From Prochlorococcus sp. AG-363-B04 (GTDB lineage Bacteria > Cyanobacteriota > Cyanobacteriia > PCC-6307 > Cyanobiaceae), in assembly GCA_003278465.1 (NCBI GenBank), contig QCFC01000003.1, forward strand, positions 1 through 64,000: DNA of 64,000 nucleotides. The letters run 5' to 3'. Positions within the stretch are counted from its first letter, which is position 1; the number at the start of each line of letters is the position of its first letter. The position numbers were made by a program, and so were the translations under genes. The notes beneath the pieces are model-generated. The model worked only from the letters and a program-made list of their open reading frames with translations. It was not told the origin of the DNA and did no database searches. Positions 28,873 through 41,410 of the stretch are shown in pieces.

Positions 28873-28943
28873 GGCGGCATGGCCAAGTGGTAAGGCAGAG
28901 GATTGCAAATCCTTTATCCCCAGTTCGAATCTGGGTGCCGCCT
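28873..28943 (+). tRNA. tRNA-Cys (anticodon GCA), integration target
   Basis: Acceptor GGCGGCA pairs with TGCCGCC, the anticodon loop is TTGCAAA within AGGAT/ATCCT, the T arm is CCCAGTTCGAATCTGGG. The last 20 bases of the tRNA plus 11 bases beyond are repeated exactly 6.58 kb away at 35506-35536, so this gene is the integration site of the element to its right and its 3' end is element-supplied. The tRNA lies antisense to the 5' extension of the LpxB-related frame. Confidence 0.97.
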
Positions 28944-28954
28944 TCTTACCTTTC
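28924..28954. repeat. attL: 31-bp direct repeat at tRNA-Cys 3' end
   Basis: Begins in the T loop (TTCGAATCTGGG), runs through the acceptor 3' strand and ends CTTACCTTTC. It is identical to 35506-35536; sequences diverge immediately outside, except for weaker similarity on the right side of each copy. Confidence 0.93.
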
Positions 28955-30889: not shown

Positions 30890-31222
30890 TTAGTTTGCTC
30901 CCATTACTTTGATTTGATTTCCAGCATCACTTAATTTCATCCATCTCTTTTTATCCTCATCAGTGAAGGTCTCTACGCGTCTTGCATAAACGGCATCTGC
31001 ATTTAAGTCTTCGATCATTTCATAACCAAAGAAGTCCAATAACTCTTCCTGACTGTTAAAGCAGCGATCACTCCACTCATAATTTTTATTCCCCTTCGCA
31101 TTTTCATACTCATAGCACTCATAGAAATAATCAGTCCTATAACGCTCTACTAACGCAAACTCCTTTTGCTCTTCATCTGGGAGTTTGTCGTACACGCTCC
31201 AACCAATTATCAAGACTGGCAT
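30890..31222 (-). CDS. Element hypothetical protein, acidic
   Basis: A 110-residue soluble, acidic protein (MPVLIIGWSVYDKLPDEEQK, later EELLDFFGYEMIEDLNADA). No domain recognised. Its ATG overlaps the stop of the 30-residue gene upstream by one base, part of a compact operon downstream of the serine recombinase. It could be an inhibitor or anti-defence protein given size and charge, but nothing in the sequence proves that. Confidence 0.55.
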   Translation of the reverse strand: MPVLIIGWSVYDKLPDEEQKEFALVERYRTDYFYECYEYENAKGNKNYEWSDRCFNSQEELLDFFGYEMIEDLNADAVYARRVETFTDEDKKRWMKLSDAGNQIKVMGAN

Positions 31223-31316: not shown

Positions 31317-31457
31317 TTAAAACACCGGATTTTGAGCGATCACCTTTGCCGTTGGATTGCGGGCAAGGGCAGTCTTCTTGGCATCCTCAAATTTAGAGAC
31401 CACTACAACCTCCTTAAAAGTGTGACCGCCTTGATAGAGGGTGACTTCAACTTTCAT
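31317..31457 (-). CDS. 46-residue element protein
   Basis: A small soluble protein with MKVEVTLYQGGHTFKEVVVV then SKFEDAKKTALARNP, a strand-strand-helix pattern. Its ATG overlaps the stop of the frameshifted gene upstream (TGATG type). No known family. Its place in a chain of overlapping frames supports coding. Confidence 0.5.
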   Translation of the reverse strand: MKVEVTLYQGGHTFKEVVVVSKFEDAKKTALARNPTAKVIAQNPVF

Positions 31458-31655
31458 CACACCTGCCCTCGATATTTCTTGAACTCATCTAAATCACTTA
31501 TGACGATGCTCTGGTAATCCTCCGGGAAACGCTGCTTCATGATTGCTGGAATTTCCAAGCAATCCGGATAGGGATTATGCAGATAAAAAATAACTTCTTT
31601 CTTCTCCTTCAAAACAATGTAATCAGATAGTCCCCCCTATATTTTTTTCAGTCAT
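31457..31655 (-). pseudogene. Small gene interrupted by a G6-run frameshift
   Basis: An ATG overlapping the serine recombinase stop (ATGA) opens MTEKNIGGTI and then stops. Removing one G from the six-G run (31632-31637) joins it to a second frame ending KYRGQV that overlaps the next gene's start, giving about 65 residues that fit the operon exactly. The second frame has no start codon of its own near its beginning. It may be a mutation, a sequencing error in a homopolymer, or slippage-regulated expression. Confidence 0.6.
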
Positions 31656-32227
31656 GCTGCTGCCTCCCGCTGAACAATCATCTGGACGGTGGATTTATTC
31701 ATACCTAATGCCTTTGCTATAGACCCATAACCAAGACCCTGATCCCTCTTATCCATAATTTCTGCAATCTGGAACTTATCAAATTTCCTCTTCGCACCAA
31801 ACTTCACACCTCTGTTCTTGGCGACTGCCCGACCTTCTGCAGTCCTTGATTTCAGTTGTGCAATTTCTTGTGAGGCGGCGTATCCAAGTATTGAGACCAG
31901 CAGCATTGTGATCTCTTTAGGCATGGTTCTGGTGTCCAATCTCTTATCAAGGGTGACTATCTGAATATTCCTCTCCAGCAACTTGCTTACTTCATTCACC
32001 ATGCCGATAAAACTGCGGTGAAGTCTTGAGAGTTCGGAAATGATGAGGGTGTCACCAGACTTCATCTCCTCAAGACACTTGGTTAGTTCTGGTCTTGCAG
32101 AGAAATCTGATTTACCCGTTATGTGATCACCTCTTATGACATCACACCCTGCTTCCTTAAGAGCAAGGACCTGCCTCTCTTGGTCTTGAGCATCTGTACT
32201 GCAACGCCAAACCCCATAAACAGTCAT
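31652..32227 (-). CDS. Serine recombinase (resolvase/invertase family)
   Basis: A 191-residue site-specific recombinase. The catalytic Ser is at about residue 10 in GVWRCSTDAQDQ, followed by the conserved arginine regions (FSARPEL; LIISELSRLHRS) and a C-terminal helix-turn-helix (GYGSIAKALGMNKSTVQMI). Length is that of a resolvase or DNA invertase rather than a large integrase. A GTG one codon upstream is possible. It may resolve element dimers or invert a segment; no matching site was identified. First gene of the leftward operon. Confidence 0.9.
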   Translation of the reverse strand: MTVYGVWRCSTDAQDQERQVLALKEAGCDVIRGDHITGKSDFSARPELTKCLEEMKSGDTLIISELSRLHRSFIGMVNEVSKLLERNIQIVTLDKRLDTRTMPKEITMLLVSILGYAASQEIAQLKSRTAEGRAVAKNRGVKFGAKRKFDKFQIAEIMDKRDQGLGYGSIAKALGMNKSTVQMIVQREAAA

Positions 32228-32361
32228 CACTCCACCTCAAATCCATGACCGTACAATACCGCATTTTTGTACTGTAATTTTGTACCTAGAGAACCCTGTA
32301 ATCGTGGTTAATACAGAGGGGTACAAAGTTTCTTGATTTTTTATACACCCTATTTGTTGAC

Positions 32362-32451
32362 GATGGGTTCACTCCAGGAGTAGACCGGAACTACGACACT
32401 CCTCACACAAGTTTGTCGGTATGGGCACTGCTCGATGAGGGTGCCCTTTTT
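32362..32451 (+). ncRNA. yfr1-like: Yfr1-like small RNA carried by the element
   Basis: Three parts in the known Yfr1 order: a 5' hairpin (GGTT-ACTC...GAGT-GACC, 32366-32386), the single-stranded hallmark ACTCCTCACAC at 32398-32408, and a terminator hairpin GGGCAC...GTGCCC with five T (32423-32451). It shares GACACTCCTCACACAAG and CTCGATGAGGG with the copy at 39255-39334. Yfr1 base-pairs with mRNAs through this motif. Transcript ends are estimated. Confidence 0.75.
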
Positions 32452-33589: not shown

Positions 33590-33738
33590 TTTTTAACCTC
33601 CTTCAGAAGTTAAGGCAAGATTGGTCTAAAAAATAAGTGCCTGACTCAAAGGGTGTGACCGAAATCTCACCCCCTTCTTAATGCCTTACTGAAATCAAAG
33701 AAATCCTCTAAAAAGGAAGGGCAACAAAGTCCCAACCC

Positions 33739-33918
33739 ATGTCTCTGATCCCTCGGTGGAAATACATGACTGATGATGCGAAGGCAATGACCAAAAGGGT
33801 TGTGCTTTCTGCGTTAGTTCTTCTCCTTTCCCTTTGGGTCATCAGAGCACTCATCCCTTGGGTAATCGTTGCTTTGTTGGGTTACTGGGTATTCAAGTGG
33901 TTGTCGAAGGGCAGTTGA
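33739..33918 (+). CDS. 59-residue membrane protein
   Basis: Begins MSLIPRWKYMTDDAKAMTKR and contains a long hydrophobic stretch (VVLSALVLLLSLWVIRALIP, then WVIVALLGYWVFKW), enough for two short spans, ending KWLSKGS. No close Shine-Dalgarno; an inner ATG (33766) is possible. It lies between two leftward units. Function unknown. Confidence 0.4.
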   Translation: MSLIPRWKYMTDDAKAMTKRVVLSALVLLLSLWVIRALIPWVIVALLGYWVFKWLSKGS

Positions 33919-33940
33919 GTGGTTGGTGTCCTGACGTTGC

Positions 33941-35362
33941 CTAGTCGTCGTCTTTTACATCCTTCATCGATTTGATCTTGCCTCCAAACCTGATATTCGG
34001 AGTTGGTTTGATTGTGCGTCTTGCTCTCGCAGCAGTCTTCTCTGCATCGATATATCGCAGATACGTGTCTCTTAACTGCATTGGACTGGTGTGACCATTG
34101 TCTGCAAAAGCATTGATGTCAGGAGCAACTCCTAGTTCAGGCATCTCTTCAAGAGTTAGACGGAAAGCGGTATGTCTGATGGTTGTCCATTTCCTTTCTT
34201 TCACTGGGAAATCAGGAAGGCACTCTTCTATTGCTGCCTTCAACAAGAAATTGAGACTCCCTAGGACACCACTCTCTGCCTCATTCCCTATTGGTCTATC
34301 CATATGGGGGAAGATCAAATACCCCTCTGGTTTGCGTCCAATAATCCTTTTCAGATAGGAATCAGCATCCCTTCGATAGTGAGATGTTCTATGCAGATCC
34401 CTATCTTTTTTTGCCGTCTCCAAAAAACAAGTCCAACTCCCTGAATCATTCCTCTTAAACCATTCACTCCTCAAACGGCACATATCCTCCGCTCGCAGAT
34501 AGAAGAACCACTCCAGTGCCATTGCGTCATATAGATCAACCCAGTTCCTTATGCACTTGCGGTTATAGGGATTGAAAGGCAACGCCTCATATTGCTTTTT
34601 AGTTCTCGCTTTTCCTTCTTTCCCCTCACCAAGTTCAAAAATGGTCTGCATCAACAATTGCCATTGTTCAAGCGTCAGATGTTGAACCTGTTTCTTTTGC
34701 TTGGAAATAGGTGGAAACGAAGGAAATCTGTGTCCAGCAAAATCATTTTCAGCACGAACTAAAAGTTTGTTGATCAGAGTTTTCATCTCTCCTTTACTTC
34801 CACTCCCATTTCCTTTCCCATTTGCTCTTGCTCTTTTTTCAAGTAGAGCAAAATAGTCCTCATAGTCAGAACGGGTGATTAGATCAACGCTCTTTCTTGC
34901 CCAAGGTTGATTAGAAATTCCATAGTCATCAGCACTCCACATCCGAAGGGTTTCTCTTCGCCACTTCTTGAAGTTCCTCCTCGTTTCCATGACCTTGCTT
35001 TCACTCCTGAAATAGGGATCCCAATAATCCAGCAAGGAGTTTGTTGTTTTCCCTTCCTGCTGATCCTTGATCTCTCTCATTGCCTGCTGCTTGCTCTGAA
35101 CCCACTTGACTGCTCTCTTCGCTGCTTCGAGAGCGTCATCAGTATTCAGTGATTCCTGTATGACCAATCGCTTCCCTTTGCCGCCCTTATTCCTTCCCTG
35201 ATGTTCTCTGCTGTCTTCTTCTATCGAAGGCAACCACTGGGCGTAAATGTTTTTGCTGTTGTAGATCCGCTTAATCCTTAAATCCTGCGGATAAGACCCT
35301 CTTATGCCGAATGCCTTCGACACATTCAAGGTTGTCCAATTTTCAGGGACTTGTGCAGGCAA
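33941..35362 (-). CDS. int: Tyrosine recombinase (integrase) of the element
   Basis: A 473-residue site-specific recombinase. In the C-terminal catalytic domain I see Arg290 (FFYLRAEDMCRLR), Lys318/319, Arg396 in TTIRHTAFR (the usual HxxR His is Thr), His424 in NGHTS and the Tyr nucleophile in DTYLRY (434 or 437). The N-terminal 120 residues look like an arm-binding domain. No ATG fits: an in-frame TAG lies just upstream of TTG 35362, the likely start. Arm-type repeats overlap its promoter region, suggesting self-repression. Confidence 0.9.
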   Translation of the reverse strand: MPAQVPENWTTLNVSKAFGIRGSYPQDLRIKRIYNSKNIYAQWLPSIEEDSREHQGRNKGGKGKRLVIQESLNTDDALEAAKRAVKWVQSKQQAMREIKDQQEGKTTNSLLDYWDPYFRSESKVMETRRNFKKWRRETLRMWSADDYGISNQPWARKSVDLITRSDYEDYFALLEKRARANGKGNGSGSKGEMKTLINKLLVRAENDFAGHRFPSFPPISKQKKQVQHLTLEQWQLLMQTIFELGEGKEGKARTKKQYEALPFNPYNRKCIRNWVDLYDAMALEWFFYLRAEDMCRLRSEWFKRNDSGSWTCFLETAKKDRDLHRTSHYRRDADSYLKRIIGRKPEGYLIFPHMDRPIGNEAESGVLGSLNFLLKAAIEECLPDFPVKERKWTTIRHTAFRLTLEEMPELGVAPDINAFADNGHTSPMQLRDTYLRYIDAEKTAARARRTIKPTPNIRFGGKIKSMKDVKDDD

Positions 35363-35487: not shown

Positions 35488-35595
35488 TTACTCCTTAATA
35501 CCCCCTTCGAATCTGGGTGCCGCCTTCTTACCTTTCCTGAAGATCGGTTGCAGGAACTCAATTATTAGGTCTCTCTTCCTAATCCTTTTTGGCAT
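35488..35595 (-). CDS. Att-overlapping basic peptide, second copy
   Basis: 35 residues, MPKRIRKRDLIIEFLQ, then PIFRKGKKAAPRFEGGIKE and a stop in the element's right arm. It starts in the flanking DNA right of attR and crosses the core. Against the copy at 29025, codons 4, 5, 6 and 8 differ only synonymously and there is a 12-bp in-frame gap. No Shine-Dalgarno is visible. Coding is supported by the substitution pattern only. Confidence 0.45.
   Translation of the reverse strand: MPKRIRKRDLIIEFLQPIFRKGKKAAPRFEGGIKE
35506..35536. repeat. attR: 31-bp direct repeat of tRNA-Cys 3' end
   Basis: Exact copy of 28924-28954; the rest of the tRNA is absent on its left, so this is a duplicated attachment site rather than a tRNA gene. 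Confidence 0.93.
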
Positions 35596-35681
35596 GCAAA
35601 CCGGAATGTGAGTGGAATGTGCGTTGGGTTACTGATGGACCAAACTTCTAACCATTTCCTAGTTTCCCAGACCTCACATTC
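35537..35681. mobile_element. Left end of an older, related element (remnant)
   Basis: To the right of attR the DNA repeats the design of the element's left end: the basic peptide frame, then a tandem 11-bp pair (GGAATGTGAGT 35603-35613, GGAATGTGCGT 35614-35624), then an inverted copy CTCACATTC (35673-35681). The 11-bp word differs from GGTAGGAAA of the intact element. Inferred: an earlier element with another integrase specificity occupied this tRNA. Its far end was not found. Confidence 0.6.
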
Positions 35682-35977
35682 TGTGCCATAGAAACAGTGG
35701 ATCACTCTTTTGACCTGTCCGATGCACCAACGTCTCCCTCAGCAAGAAGAACATCTGACCAAGCGTTGCAGGAAATGGCAGAAGAAACGAGTACTGGAGA
35801 TTGGTTGGTGCCCTGAAGTTGCTTAAAAACAGGTGTTTATCACCATTGAATCTTTCACCCAGCGATCTAGGAATTAATCAGGAGTCAGAGTACGAATGGT
35901 CTACAAAATAAGTACTTGACTCCTAAGCTCTTTCCAATTAACAGAAAAGTAAAAGTCAGTAGGCAAAATCCCTCTAC
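35682..35977. other. Non-coding remnant with short matches to the element
   Basis: No convincing gene. Two pieces echo the intact element: 35798-35826 resembles 33917-33944 (GGTTGGTGCCCTGA versus GGTTGGTGTCCTGA), and 35895-35922 resembles 33621-33647 (ATGGTCTACAAAATAAGT versus TTGGTCTAAAAAATAAGT). Their order is swapped. Confidence 0.45.
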
Positions 35978-36214
35978 TTAACCTCCGTTGCAAAAACGCA
36001 CTGCATCAGATGCATTCTTACCACTTTCTCTGATTTCCTCGACACAGTCATTGAAAACCCTTGCTTCCTTTTGAATCGAGCAGAAACCAAAGGCAATTGC
36101 CGCAAGGGAAAATGCTGAAATAACTCTTGTGCCGAGTGTGGTTAGCCCAAAAGCAAGCATTACTGATTTCTTAGTGCCGCAATTCTTCTTACCTTTTTTG
36201 TGTTCTTTACTCAT
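35978..36214 (-). CDS. Small membrane protein, picocyanobacterial family
   Basis: A 78-residue protein with a Lys-rich N-terminus, one span (about residues 28-46) and a C-terminal part with DCVEEIRESG and VRFCNGG. I recall the Cys...CNGG ending from a small-protein family repeated in Prochlorococcus and Synechococcus islands; function unknown. Isolated, in the low-GC island right of the element. Confidence 0.6.
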   Translation of the reverse strand: MSKEHKKGKKNCGTKKSVMLAFGLTTLGTRVISAFSLAAIAFGFCSIQKEARVFNDCVEEIRESGKNASDAVRFCNGG

Positions 36215-36881
36215 TGTACTTTTAAGAGATTAAGAATAAAGCATATTGAATACGAGCTTATTGTGCAGAACAGCGAAGGCAGAGAAAACCGTAAGAGGAT
36301 TGTTTTTTAGACAGTTTCTCCTTTAAAGATGTTTTGAACATGTTTAAAACCAATCCCTGACACTTAAAAATTGCTCTCTCATCTTCCTGATATATAGCAA
36401 CATGAGTTAATAAAATCCTAATAGATTATGAGAGAAAACTAAAAAAGGGCATCTAAAACAACTTACAGGACCATAGCAACCTTGCAGCAAAGATCTAATT
36501 AAGTTTTGGAAAATTTCCCTAAAATCAGTATTCCTCGAAAAGAAAGCTTAAATACAAAAACTATTAAAAGCAATCTACTAGCAATTAGAAGCTCTTCATC
36601 GAAATAGATTCTCGCAAATTAAAAAGATTAAATCCCTAGAAAAGCTTCCTAAAATAGGATTAATGAGAGCGTATAACTCCTGCCAATTGGACGATGATAT
36701 TACAATTAATCATTTGCCTTTAATCTCACTATTAACATTTTAATTTATTAGGACACGAATATAAAAAAGATATTACTTACTTGGCATAAATCTATGAAAA
36801 TATTGTATTTAATATTTAAATTCCAGGTAAAATCCAAGCTTAACCTAAGATTTAAATCATAATTTAATCAACTTTATGAAT
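36215..36881. other. AT-rich stretch without convincing genes
   Basis: Only short open frames lacking ribosome sites. A near palindrome GTTTTGAACATGTTTAAAAC lies at about 36333-36352. Typical decayed island DNA. Confidence 0.5.
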
Positions 36882-37112
36882 TCATTCTGCATTATCACTA
36901 ATTGTCTCAGCATAAAACATATATCCATCTGGAGTCATCATCATTTTGTTCCAAGCACCATCATCTGTTTTGGCAGCAACCTCTAAAACCCGTTCCTGGC
37001 CTTGATTAGTCGTCCATTCACGGACCCACCACTGGTTCTCCTTGTCAAACTGATACCCTTTAGATCTGAGAAGAGCACGAATTGCAACTTCCCTTGAAAA
37101 AGAATCATTCAT
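36882..37112 (-). CDS. Hypothetical island protein
   Basis: With ATG 37112 the protein has 76 residues, starting MNDSFSREVAIRALLRSKGY. It contains the Trp-rich QWWVREWTTNQGQ and a C-terminal MMMTPDGYMFYAETIS. It looks soluble and compact (alpha then beta). No family recognised. An upstream ATG (37157) would add a hydrophobic stretch of doubtful reality. Confidence 0.55.
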   Translation of the reverse strand: MNDSFSREVAIRALLRSKGYQFDKENQWWVREWTTNQGQERVLEVAAKTDDGAWNKMMMTPDGYMFYAETISDNAE

Positions 37113-37157
37113 TAACCCTCTACTCACTAATAGAAAGAACTTCTCAAGTACTAGCAA

Positions 37158-37653
37158 GAATTCATAAAAAGAACAGTCAAATCTCTTTTTTTAGTTGGAG
37201 ACAATCCTAAATGCCTTATCTTTTCCGTCTAATGCAATTCACAAAAACTAATAAGAGGGCAAACAACACAGCCAGAAGATCATTAAAATCGGAAGAAAGT
37301 AGTGCTCTAGAAGTCTGCATATGAAAGGATAAGATGTTCCTAATCAAACATCTACTTTAAGCAAAATTGATCACAAATGGTAGCGACCAAACCTTAATTC
37401 ATGTAAAGAATAAAACTGATCAAGAAAAGGAAATCTTTTTTCTTTAAATTTAATAGAATTAGATTTTTAGTATCTACCAATGGCCTGCTTCTTTACCTTG
37501 GTATTTAGGATATAAAGAACTTCTTCAATCAACTTCTAACATGCATTTAGAGCTATAATTTATATTCATAGATATTCAATAATAAGCTATCTTTAAGTTG
37601 TTATAATTACTCTATATATTAGAATTTATATGAATCCTCCAAGGGAACCCTTA
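37158..37653. other. AT-rich gap with one possible peptide gene
   Basis: On the minus strand 37216-37320 could encode 34 residues (MQTSRALLSSDFNDLLAVLF, then a span ending in CIRRKR), a membrane peptide of a kind common in picocyanobacteria, but there is no independent support. Nothing else is seen. Confidence 0.35.
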
Positions 37654-37842
37654 CTATTTATTCTCATCAACATAAAAAGGATTAGGTATTCGTATATGTC
37701 TTGAATTGTAATTTTGTTTGGCATCATCAAATTGCTCAATCCAGCTTGCAGTAAATCTCAGCGCATTGACAATGGCAATACGAACACCTGGAGATGACCA
37801 TGCCCCAAGCAAAAGCAAAAGAAGAAGAAGGGTTCTAATCAA
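37654..37842 (-). CDS. Small membrane-anchored island protein
   Basis: 62 residues: a Leu-rich N-terminal span (MIRTLLLLLLLLGAW) and a polar tail with RHIRIPNPFYVDE. The start overlaps the stop of the gene upstream by 4 bp. The tail motif RIPNPF echoes RIPTPL in its partner, perhaps duplicated. Function unknown. Confidence 0.5.
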   Translation of the reverse strand: MIRTLLLLLLLLGAWSSPGVRIAIVNALRFTASWIEQFDDAKQNYNSRHIRIPNPFYVDENK

Positions 37843-38066
37843 TGCAAAAAAAGCCTCTCAAGAATGAATGTGATTAATACACCTGCTATGAAAGATAGCC
37901 AATATAAACCATAATCTGTAATACCAGTTTGTCTACGAAACCAGTCTATAGATCTCTTGTGCAATTTGATAAGGTTTAATTGCTTATATGAATATGCATT
38001 CGATTCTCTTTTTAGAGGCGTTGGTATCCGGACATATCGATGTTTCTGGTCATTCAGGAAACTCAT
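37839..38066 (-). CDS. Small tail-anchored island protein
   Basis: 75 residues with a basic N-terminal half (KHRYVRIPTPLKRES) and one C-terminal span (GLYWLSFIAGVLITFILERL). Coupled by a 4-bp overlap to the 62-residue membrane protein downstream; together they may form a small membrane complex. No family recognised. Confidence 0.5.
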   Translation of the reverse strand: MSFLNDQKHRYVRIPTPLKRESNAYSYKQLNLIKLHKRSIDWFRRQTGITDYGLYWLSFIAGVLITFILERLFLH

Positions 38067-38156
38067 ACTATAACTGTTTAGTATGATCTCATAATCCTGT
38101 AAATATTAAAAAATGCAAGACCTTAGCTTTAATGTAATCAATTCACAAAAAGGCTC

Positions 38157-38369
38157 TTGGTTGCCTTCAAAAATCATCCAGAGCCTCTGCAAGTCATAGA
38201 TGATCAATTAAAAATCAAGCTATTTATTATGATTAATATAATCACTTTTACCTACATCTGGACATACCAGAAAAAGTTCAATCTAATCCTAGAGCAACAA
38301 GATCGGAAAGAACTCAGTAAAGTCTTATCTGCATACAATCCCAATGTTTTTTATCACCAATCTCTATAG
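38157..38369 (+). CDS. Doubtful small membrane protein
   Basis: An open frame of 70 residues from TTG 38157, or 46 from ATG 38229 (MINIITFTYIWTYQKKFNLI). One hydrophobic segment. No good ribosome site. Kept only because it fills a gap and has a sensible composition. Confidence 0.25.
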   Translation: MVAFKNHPEPLQVIDDQLKIKLFIMINIITFTYIWTYQKKFNLILEQQDRKELSKVLSAYNPNVFYHQSL

Positions 38370-38594
38370 GTCATTCATTTGATTAACAACTCATTCTACA
38401 CATCCTATATTTAATTTGATCTGAAAAAATCTATAGAAAAATTAATCAAGTCGATATTAAACTACCAAACAAAAAAATAGGATTAATCCTACGCTTGCTT
38501 GAATCTAGCTAACAGCATCTCCGCCAAATGAAACTTTCTATCAATTGCAGACCTCTGATGTGCTAGACCAGTAATAGGGTGTAAGAACACAAAA

Positions 38595-38789
38595 ATGCCC
38601 TTCAATAAATCACGTTGTGCAAACTGCCGAAATTTTGGAGGCTGCCCCTTATCAGGTGGCTTCTGCAGAGTTTGGAACGTCCCAATTTCATCTCATGCCA
38701 TCAAAAGATATAGTTGCCAATACTGGTCACTTCAAGAAAAACGAAAACCAGCAGTTCTTTCAAATGAAGATCTGTTAGCACCCATTTAG
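38595..38789 (+). CDS. Cys-rich small protein, possible zinc-binding
   Basis: 64 residues, MPFNKSRCANCRNFGGCPLS then GGFCRVWNVP and YSCQYW. Six Cys in the first 45 residues (CANC, GGC, FC, SC) suggest metal binding or a redox role. The ATG follows an A-rich leader. A hairpin with a T run sits 64 bp after the stop (38853-38879). No known family. Confidence 0.5.
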   Translation: MPFNKSRCANCRNFGGCPLSGGFCRVWNVPISSHAIKRYSCQYWSLQEKRKPAVLSNEDLLAPI

Positions 38790-38852
38790 ATAAAAAAGGC
38801 GTCCTAATAGCAGTAAAAACTCCTAACTCACAAGCAATAAGCTTCCTTAATC

Positions 38853-38879
38853 AATAGTAGTTAATTACTATTAGTTTTT
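38853..38879 (+). terminator. Possible terminator after the Cys-rich gene
   Basis: AATAGTA and TACTATT form a 7-bp stem with a 6-nt loop, followed by AGTTTTTA. The stem is AT-rich, so weak. Confidence 0.4.
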
Positions 38880-39254
38880 ATCGGGCACAATAAAGATTGT
38901 CAATTTGGCCTCAATATTTCTTGATCTTTTCAAAGTAAATACCCTTGAAAAGGATACATCATAACCTCAATTTGAGTGAAAGCTTTACAGAGCTAAAGAG
39001 TCGAGCAAAGATGTTAGAAGGCCCTTTAATAAGGATCTAAGATAAATAATTCCGGTCCGAAATTTGATCCATATTGGACGTAATGAGTTGTTAATTCCTA
39101 CCAGATTTTATCAATTCCATTTTCAGAGAATTAATTCCTAAACTTAAAAACGATCAAACTCCAAATCTATTTCGAGACTTAGCCTTAACCATTACTTTTC
39201 GAAATGATAGCAATATGTAATTATCAGGCTAACTAGTTTCGCTAAGACCCTAAT

Positions 39255-39334
39255 AAAAAAAAGGCGCCCTCATCGAGTAGCGCCTATCAGGACATCTTGT
39301 GTGAGGAGTGTCCATAACAGTTCTAATCAGAACA
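39255..39334 (-). ncRNA. yfr1: Yfr1 small RNA homologue
   Basis: On the minus strand: 5' hairpin GTTCTGATTAGAAC (39320-39333), the hallmark ACTCCTCACAC (39299-39309) in an unpaired stretch, then terminator hairpin AGGCGC...GCGCCT (39262-39285) and eight T. This is the Yfr1 layout. In other picocyanobacteria yfr1 lies near guaB-trxA; here neither gene is near. The 465 bp to its left holds no gene. Confidence 0.82.
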
Positions 39335-39576: not shown

Positions 39577-40224
39577 TTACGCGCTACTTGAATCTTCAAG
39601 ATTCGGATCAGGACTGACCACAACTGGCATTGAGCTAGTGGATGAACGCAACTGAACAACCTTCACAGGAGGTTCTGGAGGAACATGAGGTTCTGCAGGA
39701 ACATTGGGGGCTGGTTCCTCTTCTTTAGAGCATGCAGCCAAGGCCTCTCGCAACAAAGAGTCAAACGTTGCTCCTGGCAAACGATGCCTTGCAACTTCTA
39801 GAAAAGTACGCGGTAAAGATTCAGATGCCGCTCTGCGGAGGGCAGGATTATTGCGACGATGTTCCTGTTCATCTTGGATGGCACGAATAAACCTTCGAGT
39901 TACATCTCTCTTTGTTGATGCCTTGATGAAAGTATCACTATCACCAAGGCCATTGCCAACCTCACGCTCTAAGTCAGTTATACGTCTATCAAGACTTTCC
40001 AAGACCTCTTCAGCTTCTTTGCCTATATGAGCCAACTGACCATCAGAAAGATTAGGCATATCAGCCACATAAACCTTTCCATGGTCTCGGAGAGTCAAGA
40101 ATGTAGGTCGTTGCCCTTGACGAGCTCCATGACCTTCATGACCACTATGGATTGGACGTTTTGGAGGAACTGGGCCTGCCGAACTACGCCTACGCGTTGT
40201 GCGTTGGGGACTATCGAAAGTCAT
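39577..40224 (-). CDS. Conserved picocyanobacterial protein, disordered ends
   Basis: 215 residues. The N-terminus is basic (RRRSSAGPVPPKRP), the middle helical with likely coiled coil (EAEEVLESLDRRITDLEREV), and the C-terminus Pro/Glu-rich then Ser-rich. No catalytic motif. Composition and GC resemble core genes rather than the island; with purM it marks the right edge of the island. It reads in the same direction as purM, 148 bp after it. Confidence 0.7.
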   Translation of the reverse strand: MTFDSPQRTTRRRSSAGPVPPKRPIHSGHEGHGARQGQRPTFLTLRDHGKVYVADMPNLSDGQLAHIGKEAEEVLESLDRRITDLEREVGNGLGDSDTFIKASTKRDVTRRFIRAIQDEQEHRRNNPALRRAASESLPRTFLEVARHRLPGATFDSLLREALAACSKEEEPAPNVPAEPHVPPEPPVKVVQLRSSTSSMPVVVSPDPNLEDSSSA

Positions 40225-40372: not shown

Positions 40373-41410
40373 TCAATCTGGAAGGCCAGCCACACCTACC
40401 TTATGAGTTGAAGATGACTCTTCAACCTCTCCCATTGTCCATGCTTCCAATCCCTCATGAATACACACCTGTAGTGCATCTTCAACGCATTCCCTTGGTA
40501 GAACGACACAAAAACCAACTCCAAGATTGAAGGTATGCCACAAATCACGTTCTGAAATATCTCCCGCATCTTTCAGCCACTGAAAAATCTCAGGTCTGGT
40601 CCAACTTAATGAGTCAACTCTGGCCTGAAAACCCTTCGGCAAACAACGAGGCAAATTCTCTGGCAAACCACCACCAGTGATATGTGCCATTCCATGCAAA
40701 GGAATATTTGACTGTGAAAGTGATTGAACAACTTTCTGGTAAAGAGTTGTTGGAGTCAATAATTCATCAATTAATGGAAGATTGTTTGACCCAAAACAAC
40801 TCAGATGATCAGCTTTATTCATGTCCAAGATCTTGCGAACCAAGCTAAATCCATTGCTATGTAATCCACTACTAGACAAACCAATTATTTGGTCTCCTAC
40901 CCTGATCAAACTTTTATCTATAAGATCAGCCTCCTCAACCACACCAACACAAAATCCCGCAATGTCATATCTACCTGGGGAATAAAAACCAGGCATTTCA
41001 GCAGTTTCCCCACCTAACAGTGCACATCCAGTAGAACTACATCCATGGGCAATTCCTGCTACAACCTCAGCCATAGCCTCAGGTTGTAGCACTCCAGTAG
41101 CAATATAATCAAGAAAAAAGAGTGGATTTGCTCCGCTAGTTATTACATCATTCACACACATAGCTACTAGATCAACACCTACTCCAAAATGAGCCTGATA
41201 TTGCTGCGCTAGTTCAAGCTTTGTGCCCACTCCATCTGTACCTGAAACCAAAACAGGTTGGGAGAATCCAGAAGGTATACGAAAACATCCACCAAAACCA
41301 CCTAGGCCACCTATTACTTCAGATCGATGCGTTGATTCAACACTGGCTCTAATCCTGTCTATAAAAGCCCTCCCACCCTCAACATCGACACCTGCCGTCT
41401 TGTAATCCAT
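40373..41410 (-). CDS. purM: Phosphoribosylformylglycinamidine cyclo-ligase (AIR synthetase)
   Basis: Fifth step of purine synthesis. The 345-residue protein has [49 protein letters not shown] and [16 protein letters not shown], all diagnostic of PurM. Length is normal. It stands alone, divergent from panC/cmk by about 125 bp. Confidence 0.98.

Follow-up and report, generated by a model that had tools for sequence, protein, structure and literature searches.

A Yfr10-type small RNA gene on an integrative element at tRNA-Cys in low-light Prochlorococcus, with predicted action on porins and Yfr2

A small integrative element of 6.6 kb, inserted at a tRNA-Cys gene of a deep-dwelling (low-light) Prochlorococcus, holds its own Yfr10-type small RNA gene (Table 1). 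The locus was analyzed within a stretch of 64,000 nucleotides, hereafter called the window. The boundaries of the element, the maintenance of the RNA structure by compensatory changes, the spread in multiple copies, the association with recombinase genes, and the seed complementarity to the host Yfr2 and to the start regions of both porin genes found can be read directly from the sequences. The RNA is probably an element-borne paralogue of Yfr10 that behaves as an independent unit, represses porins, and titrates Yfr2.

Table 1. Features of the tRNA-Cys locus (positions refer to the window)
Feature	Position	Strand	Basis or remark
tRNA-Cys(GCA), integration site	28873..28943	+	ARAGORN and Rfam
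Left att repeat, 31 bp, spans tRNA-Cys 3' end	28924..28954	+	exact repeat
110-aa protein, recurs beside RNA/recombinase modules in other islands	30890..31222	-	87-98% identical homologues in L034, L119, L128
Serine recombinase (resolvase/invertase N-terminal domain), divergent, 160 bp from RNA	31652..32230	-	PF00239, E 1.8e-23; phrog_125 DNA invertase, 5.4e-45
Putative promoter	32357..32386	+	TTGACG (32357-32362), 18-nt spacer, TAGACC (32381-32386); read from sequence
Element-borne Yfr10-type small RNA gene	32391..32450 (ends ~32451)	+	covariance model R1, 90.2 bits, E 8.7e-21 in own genome; pair counts
5' hairpin of element RNA	stem 32394-32398 / 32414-32418		ACTCCTCACAC (32398-32408) opens its loop
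Terminator hairpin of element RNA	32423-32446		then T-run to ~32451
Probable integrase (473 aa), read as a divergent tyrosine recombinase with tRNA-Cys specificity	33941..35362	-	homologues and att adjacency
Right att repeat, 31 bp, identical	35506..35536	+	exact repeat
Native chromosomal Yfr10-type RNA gene, outside element	39258..39316	-	model R1, 76 bits; shared context
215-aa gene of native yfr10 context	39577..40224	-	homologues beside native RNA in L124, L125, L128, L151-L155 and others
AIR synthase-related protein, native yfr10 context	40373..41410	-	PF02769 / PF00586; synteny

The RNA gene is flanked by a perfect repeat of the tRNA-Cys 3' end, TTCGAATCTGGGTGCCGCCTTCTTACCTTTC, which bears out the claim of an earlier, sequence-only reading that it lies inside an integrated element; duplication of the tRNA 3' end around an insert marks tRNA-integrated, tycheposon-like elements. 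Relatives without an insert at tRNA-Cys carry the native RNA 102–397 bp from the tRNA gene (L151, L152, L153, L175, L178, L186). The 473-aa protein, encoded at the right end of the element, gave no match to Pfam, NCBIfam, or PDB profiles, and a single-sequence structure prediction was uninformative (pLDDT 36.7). Eight full-length homologues are 37–58% identical to it, the residues R290, K318, R396, H397, and Y434 are invariant (8–9 homologues), and the gene of each homologue has a tRNA-Cys-like 3' end ~130–200 bp away. The protein is probably a divergent tyrosine recombinase, an assignment we treat as putative. Of 151 family genomes, 17 contain homologues, whole or in fragments, and a search of viral contigs revealed no relatives. 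For the 110-aa protein, profile searches gave no family match. The element resembles the Prochlorococcus tycheposons in its insertion at a tRNA gene with a repeat of the tRNA end, its integrase-like gene, and its small cargo. Tycheposons are not known to carry small RNAs, and a search of the open-access literature yielded no report of Yfr10 on integrative elements.

The sequences just to the right of each att repeat are alike, and the region from 35.5 to 39 kb also contains island-type fragments, so that the site seems to hold stacked elements, the second of them decayed. Positions 35537–39250 hold fragments akin to those of other islands, with a second att-arm-like stretch at 35537–35690, and appear to be the decayed remains of an earlier element stacked at this tRNA-Cys. 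Short blocks at 33603–33944 and 35692–35922 recur in many low-light islands; the former seems to encode a small membrane-type peptide.

In the fold of the RNA locus, CTACGACACTCCTCACACAAGTTTGTCGGTATGGGCACTGCTCGATGAGGGTGCCCTTTTT, the motif lies in a loop closed by a 5-bp stem (CGACA/TGTCG); a terminator hairpin with an inner CTC-GAT-GAG and a T-run follow. The terminator had been anticipated from the letters. The motif, however, does not lie between the 5' hairpin and the terminator, as had been supposed, but within the loop of that hairpin, and the proposed start at 32362 belongs to the promoter region, with the RNA itself running from ~32391 to 32451. The block GGAGTAGAACAGAACTAC immediately 5' of the RNA is kept in 50 intact non-native copies, and the unit conserved in blastn comparisons begins at 32376 in most loci. 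Within the window, for which shuffles predict 0.02 matches, the motif occurs exactly twice, the second time at 39299–39309 (−); two matches were found in none of 100 shuffles. Both copies contain the 17-nt block GACACTCCTCACACAAG and the 11-nt block CTCGATGAGGG, as reported earlier, and their altered stems still pair, with CGACA/TGTCG versus GGACA/TGTCC in the 5' hairpin and GGGCAC/GTGCCC versus GGCGC/GCGCC in the terminator (copies at 32391 and 39258, respectively). The single window copy folds moderately better than its shuffles (z −1.83), and a generic promoter and terminator scan made no call in the RNA region of the window. The case for the RNA therefore rests on comparative evidence.

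When genome contigs were scanned with the 17-mer, 39 stretches matched, nearly all from Prochlorococcus; the few other matches, for example in Vibrio and Alphaproteobacteria, have no hairpin and terminator. Thirty-four distinct copies aligned readily. In this alignment, 99.4% of the cells formed standard pairs (shuffled, 93.4) and seven pairs carried double changes (shuffled, 2.9). The covariation score exceeded that of all 500 shuffles (0/500), and slid controls were 42–63% paired. Among the 21 non-native copies alone, pairing was 100%, with 21 double-change cells versus 7.0 in shuffled alignments (0/500). Compensatory changes are present in both stems, also when non-native copies are considered by themselves. 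The motif is part of a structurally conserved RNA gene and occurs beyond chance, which supports the sequence-only reading.

In the own genome, model R1 matched at C3:32391, C6:410, and C3:39258, three copies in all; among 400 family genomes, 60 had the RNA, in one to seven copies each, the seven in one incomplete genome. These counts are probably low, because several copies sit at contig ends; the source assembly itself is 78% complete. Many copies lie 10–20 kb or less apart on one contig, often clustered in islands, and the RNA is present in many islands besides that of the window. Known phages, plasmids, and viral contigs gave no related RNA; two 17-mer matches in viral contigs were discounted, as they have no hairpin and terminator. 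Copies with a mutated motif, broken stems, or a lost terminator were found at L110, L112, L113, L114, L115, and L118. We conclude that copies are subject to turnover.

With its motif held in the 5' hairpin loop, the RNA corresponds to Yfr10 and not to Yfr1, to which it had originally been likened. In Yfr1, the motif is required to be single-stranded between two stem-loops, which rules out membership; the Rfam search of the window gave no match to the Yfr1 model. Both RNAs share the same 11-nt seed, to which the porin ribosome-binding sites are complementary. A separate Yfr1-like copy of the host, with the motif single-stranded between two hairpins, lies at G000:C2:78888. Yfr10 is defined by the Yfr1 motif in a stem loop, and its homologues are alike in little else, be it sequence or synteny (PMC6778093). 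Judged by this literature definition, the element RNA is Yfr10-type. The sole related family reported by Rfam was Yfr10 (RF02362), at 18.6 and 17.6 bits and far below the gathering score of 43. As the homologues share little beyond the motif, this shortfall bears on the curated model and not on the family as published. Yfr103 was ruled out as the same RNA by its length of 290–328 nt.

The closest known RNAs are Yfr10 (with Yfr12 and Yfr18) of Prochlorococcus MED4, Yfr10 of SS120, and Yfr104 of MIT9313, which likewise are short and expose the Yfr1 motif in a 5' stem loop; in MED4, RNAs of the Yfr10 group adjoin Yfr2-family genes, and Yfr10 lies in a genomic island (PMC2518516, PMC6778093). The window RNA differs from these in its stems and terminator, as reflected in 18.6 versus 43 bits for RF02362, and in its extended loop CACACAAGTT. 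It further differs in being carried by an integrative element, next to a serine recombinase gene, in having several copies per genome, and in lacking a Yfr2 partner in the window.

The second copy noted earlier at 39255–39334 does share the described blocks, but it is a native chromosomal gene outside the element. In about 20 low-light genomes, the AIR-synthase-like gene, the 215-aa gene, the RNA, and tRNA-Cys(GCA) follow each other in fixed order, and the gap between native RNA and tRNA-Cys is often 100–1,400 bp. The R1 match at G010:C1:1596007 is the sole hairpin-borne motif copy of that genome and has the same context as the native window copy; the other exact motif match in G010 lies in apparent coding sequence. 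G010 is probably SS120, and since Yfr10 is known from that strain, the native window copy would likely be its orthologue. Yfr10 has been detected experimentally in SS120 (PMC6778093). The element RNA most likely originated when the native gene next to the tRNA-Cys integration site was captured. Loop variants of the AATT type were found in 11 native and 7 non-native copies of one clade, and variants of the AAG type in 4 native and 41 non-native copies elsewhere. As the non-native variants follow the host clade, exchange seems to occur mostly within clades. The promoter block GGAGTAGAACAGAAC is common to non-native copies and missing from native ones, which indicates that most non-native copies probably descend from an earlier non-native lineage and not from repeated fresh capture.

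The RNA gene was confirmed to lie upstream of and divergent from the serine recombinase gene. To assess this association, 44 related recombinase matches and 78 RNA matches from two independent searches were compared in the genomes carrying the RNA. A divergent RNA was present within 500 bp at 16 of the 44 recombinase genes; uniform placement predicts 0.017, a value that flatters the association because both kinds of gene concentrate in islands. The fixed orientation of the 16 pairs and their spacing of 135–402 bp are nevertheless specific. At other loci, the divergent gene is of the AlpA type (PF05930). At ~31455–31660 (−), the window contains a seemingly frameshifted homologue of a 65-aa protein that is conserved after the recombinase of other islands; the frameshift lies within a G run and reflects either real decay or an assembly error.

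On the 3' side, the partner RNA Yfr2 (Cyano-1, RF01701), the 5' end of which complements the loop, is encoded downstream on the same strand of 24 of 51 intact non-native copies, about half, and of none of 19 native ones. These matches scored above gathering and lay just downstream of the respective copies. The window itself contains no Yfr2-family RNA (RF01701), and its element copy has no Yfr2 partner; by eye, its 3' side holds the start of a decayed TPR-repeat gene. A Yfr2-family neighbor of Yfr10 has been published for high-light strains, not for all members, and tandem yfr10-yfr2 pairs are known from MED4 (PMC2518516). Tandem island cassettes were seen at L140, L157, L132, L163, and L119, and in the own genome at G000:C6:246-312 beside C6:410-469. 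Their Yfr2 core lies 66–70 or 121–130 nt past the yfr10 terminator and is often followed by a gene for a 259-aa ion-channel protein (PF00520).

Instead of an independent unit, the RNA might be a passenger that the element took from the neighboring native yfr10 by imprecise excision, an occasional cargo under weak or no selection that spreads by homologous recombination between islands. The proximity of native yfr10 to the att site when nothing is inserted, the existence of decayed copies, which shows that copies can be neutral, and the match between non-native loop variants and the native variant of the host clade all agree with such an origin. Yet double compensatory changes have accumulated among the non-native copies, the motif is invariant, the promoter block is retained among them while native copies have none, and the pairing with recombinase genes is strongly non-random. 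These features argue for selection and for a separate non-native lineage, and we consider the passenger explanation rather unlikely.

Predicted pairing of the loop with gene starts was compared with a background of 906 ORF starts, taken mechanically, with a 1st percentile of −14.5 kcal/mol. The loop CACUCCUCACACAAGUU can form 17 bp with the 5' part of the core Yfr2 of the host at C1 (−28.7 kcal/mol). When folding costs are included, the element RNA gains −16.7 from pairing with Yfr2, compared with −14.1 for its native counterpart and −11.2 for Yfr1. In other genomes, the Yfr2 match spans 8–16 bp, so the long match is not universal. In both OprB-type porin genes found in the genome, 9–12 nt of the ribosome-binding region are complementary to the motif, and their starts GTGTGAGGA and TTGTGTGAGGA, just before the ATG, yielded −16.7 and −18.9 kcal/mol with the loop. 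Outside Yfr2 and the RNA genes, the sequence GTGTGRGGRG matches only two sites in the genome, of which the window holds one (8282), within an ORF. Strong pairing with AlpA starts (−33 and −25 kcal/mol) proved to be an artifact, as the longest ORF runs antisense through the RNA gene. PMM1119 and PMM1121 of MED4 are porin-type genes. Both are validated Yfr1 targets in MED4; Yfr1 represses PMM1121, Yfr2 relieves this repression, and Yfr10 pairs with Yfr2 (PMC6778093). The suggestion that the RNA changes porin expression or titrates a host regulator is consistent with the 9–12 nt porin complements and the 17-nt Yfr2 pairing, and it stands as a prediction. The label of a mimic fits less well, as the RNA is a paralogue of the host's own Yfr10.

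The start of the window recombinase, GATTTGAGGTGGAGTGATG, also pairs with the loop (−14.9 kcal/mol), ranking second of the 54 window genes and within 0.8% of the 906 background starts. Together with the divergent position in 16 loci, this could mean that the RNA mainly regulates the element itself by pairing with the start of the divergent recombinase mRNA and holding recombination down. The complementarity is not conserved, however; 11 of 14 recombinase starts pair within the ordinary background range, so that the recombinase mRNA was rejected as a conserved target and such self-control appears very improbable. An intergenic hairpin that merely happens to contain the 11-mer, as the weak z-score of the single copy and the empty generic scan might suggest, is excluded in practice by the motif statistics, the covariation, also among non-native copies, and the recurrence in 60 of 400 genomes.

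In the preferred reading, an independent, element-borne Yfr10 paralogue, the incoming element would bring its own promoter, ~60-nt RNA, and terminator. The RNA would be transcribed, as is the low-light Yfr10 of SS120 according to its published detection, and its hairpin loop would expose the Yfr1/Yfr10 seed. It could then pair with the ribosome-binding site of porin mRNA and block translation, comparable to the published action of Yfr1 on PMM1121, and would also occupy Yfr2, the normal sequestrator of Yfr1 and Yfr10. Once the element has arrived, the Yfr1/Yfr10 side of the circuit would be present at a higher dose. Modules with their own downstream Yfr2 would partly balance this effect; the window element is without one. 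The added effect may be small, because the porin and Yfr2 seeds are equally open to the host's Yfr1 and native Yfr10. As the RNA gene recurs beside recombinase genes, mobile elements may add parts to the porin/Yfr2 circuit of their hosts. Prophage anti-sRNAs such as AgvB of E. coli likewise represent a small RNA on a mobile element that may capture a host small RNA (PMC4104026). The element RNA is unrelated to them in sequence, is a paralogue of a host RNA and not a target mimic, and would not be expected to depend on Hfq; MED4 is without Hfq (PMC2518516).

Dispersed Yfr10 and Yfr10-Yfr2 cassettes of low-light islands, accompanied by serine recombinase or AlpA-type genes, might form a common control layer that sets the dose of the Yfr1/Yfr2 network (porins, carbon and energy metabolism), with the elements possibly sensing or silencing one another; we offer this idea tentatively. 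Few small-RNA circuits of cyanobacteria are as conserved as that of Yfr1, Yfr10, and Yfr2, and MED4 pull-downs link these RNAs to hundreds of mRNAs. If elements routinely bring one arm of this circuit, with or without its antagonist, horizontal transfer would alter the dose of core-regulator wiring, beyond gene content. This might be a reason why small RNAs of Prochlorococcus concentrate in genomic islands, and for tests of the Yfr1/Yfr2 titration model, the element copies would serve as naturally occurring dose variants. At one locus (L014 / L110-L111, G078:C2), a stretch of 8 kb holds three intact RNA copies that point the same way and are separated by TPR-repeat genes; this array is a possible substrate for recombination between copies.
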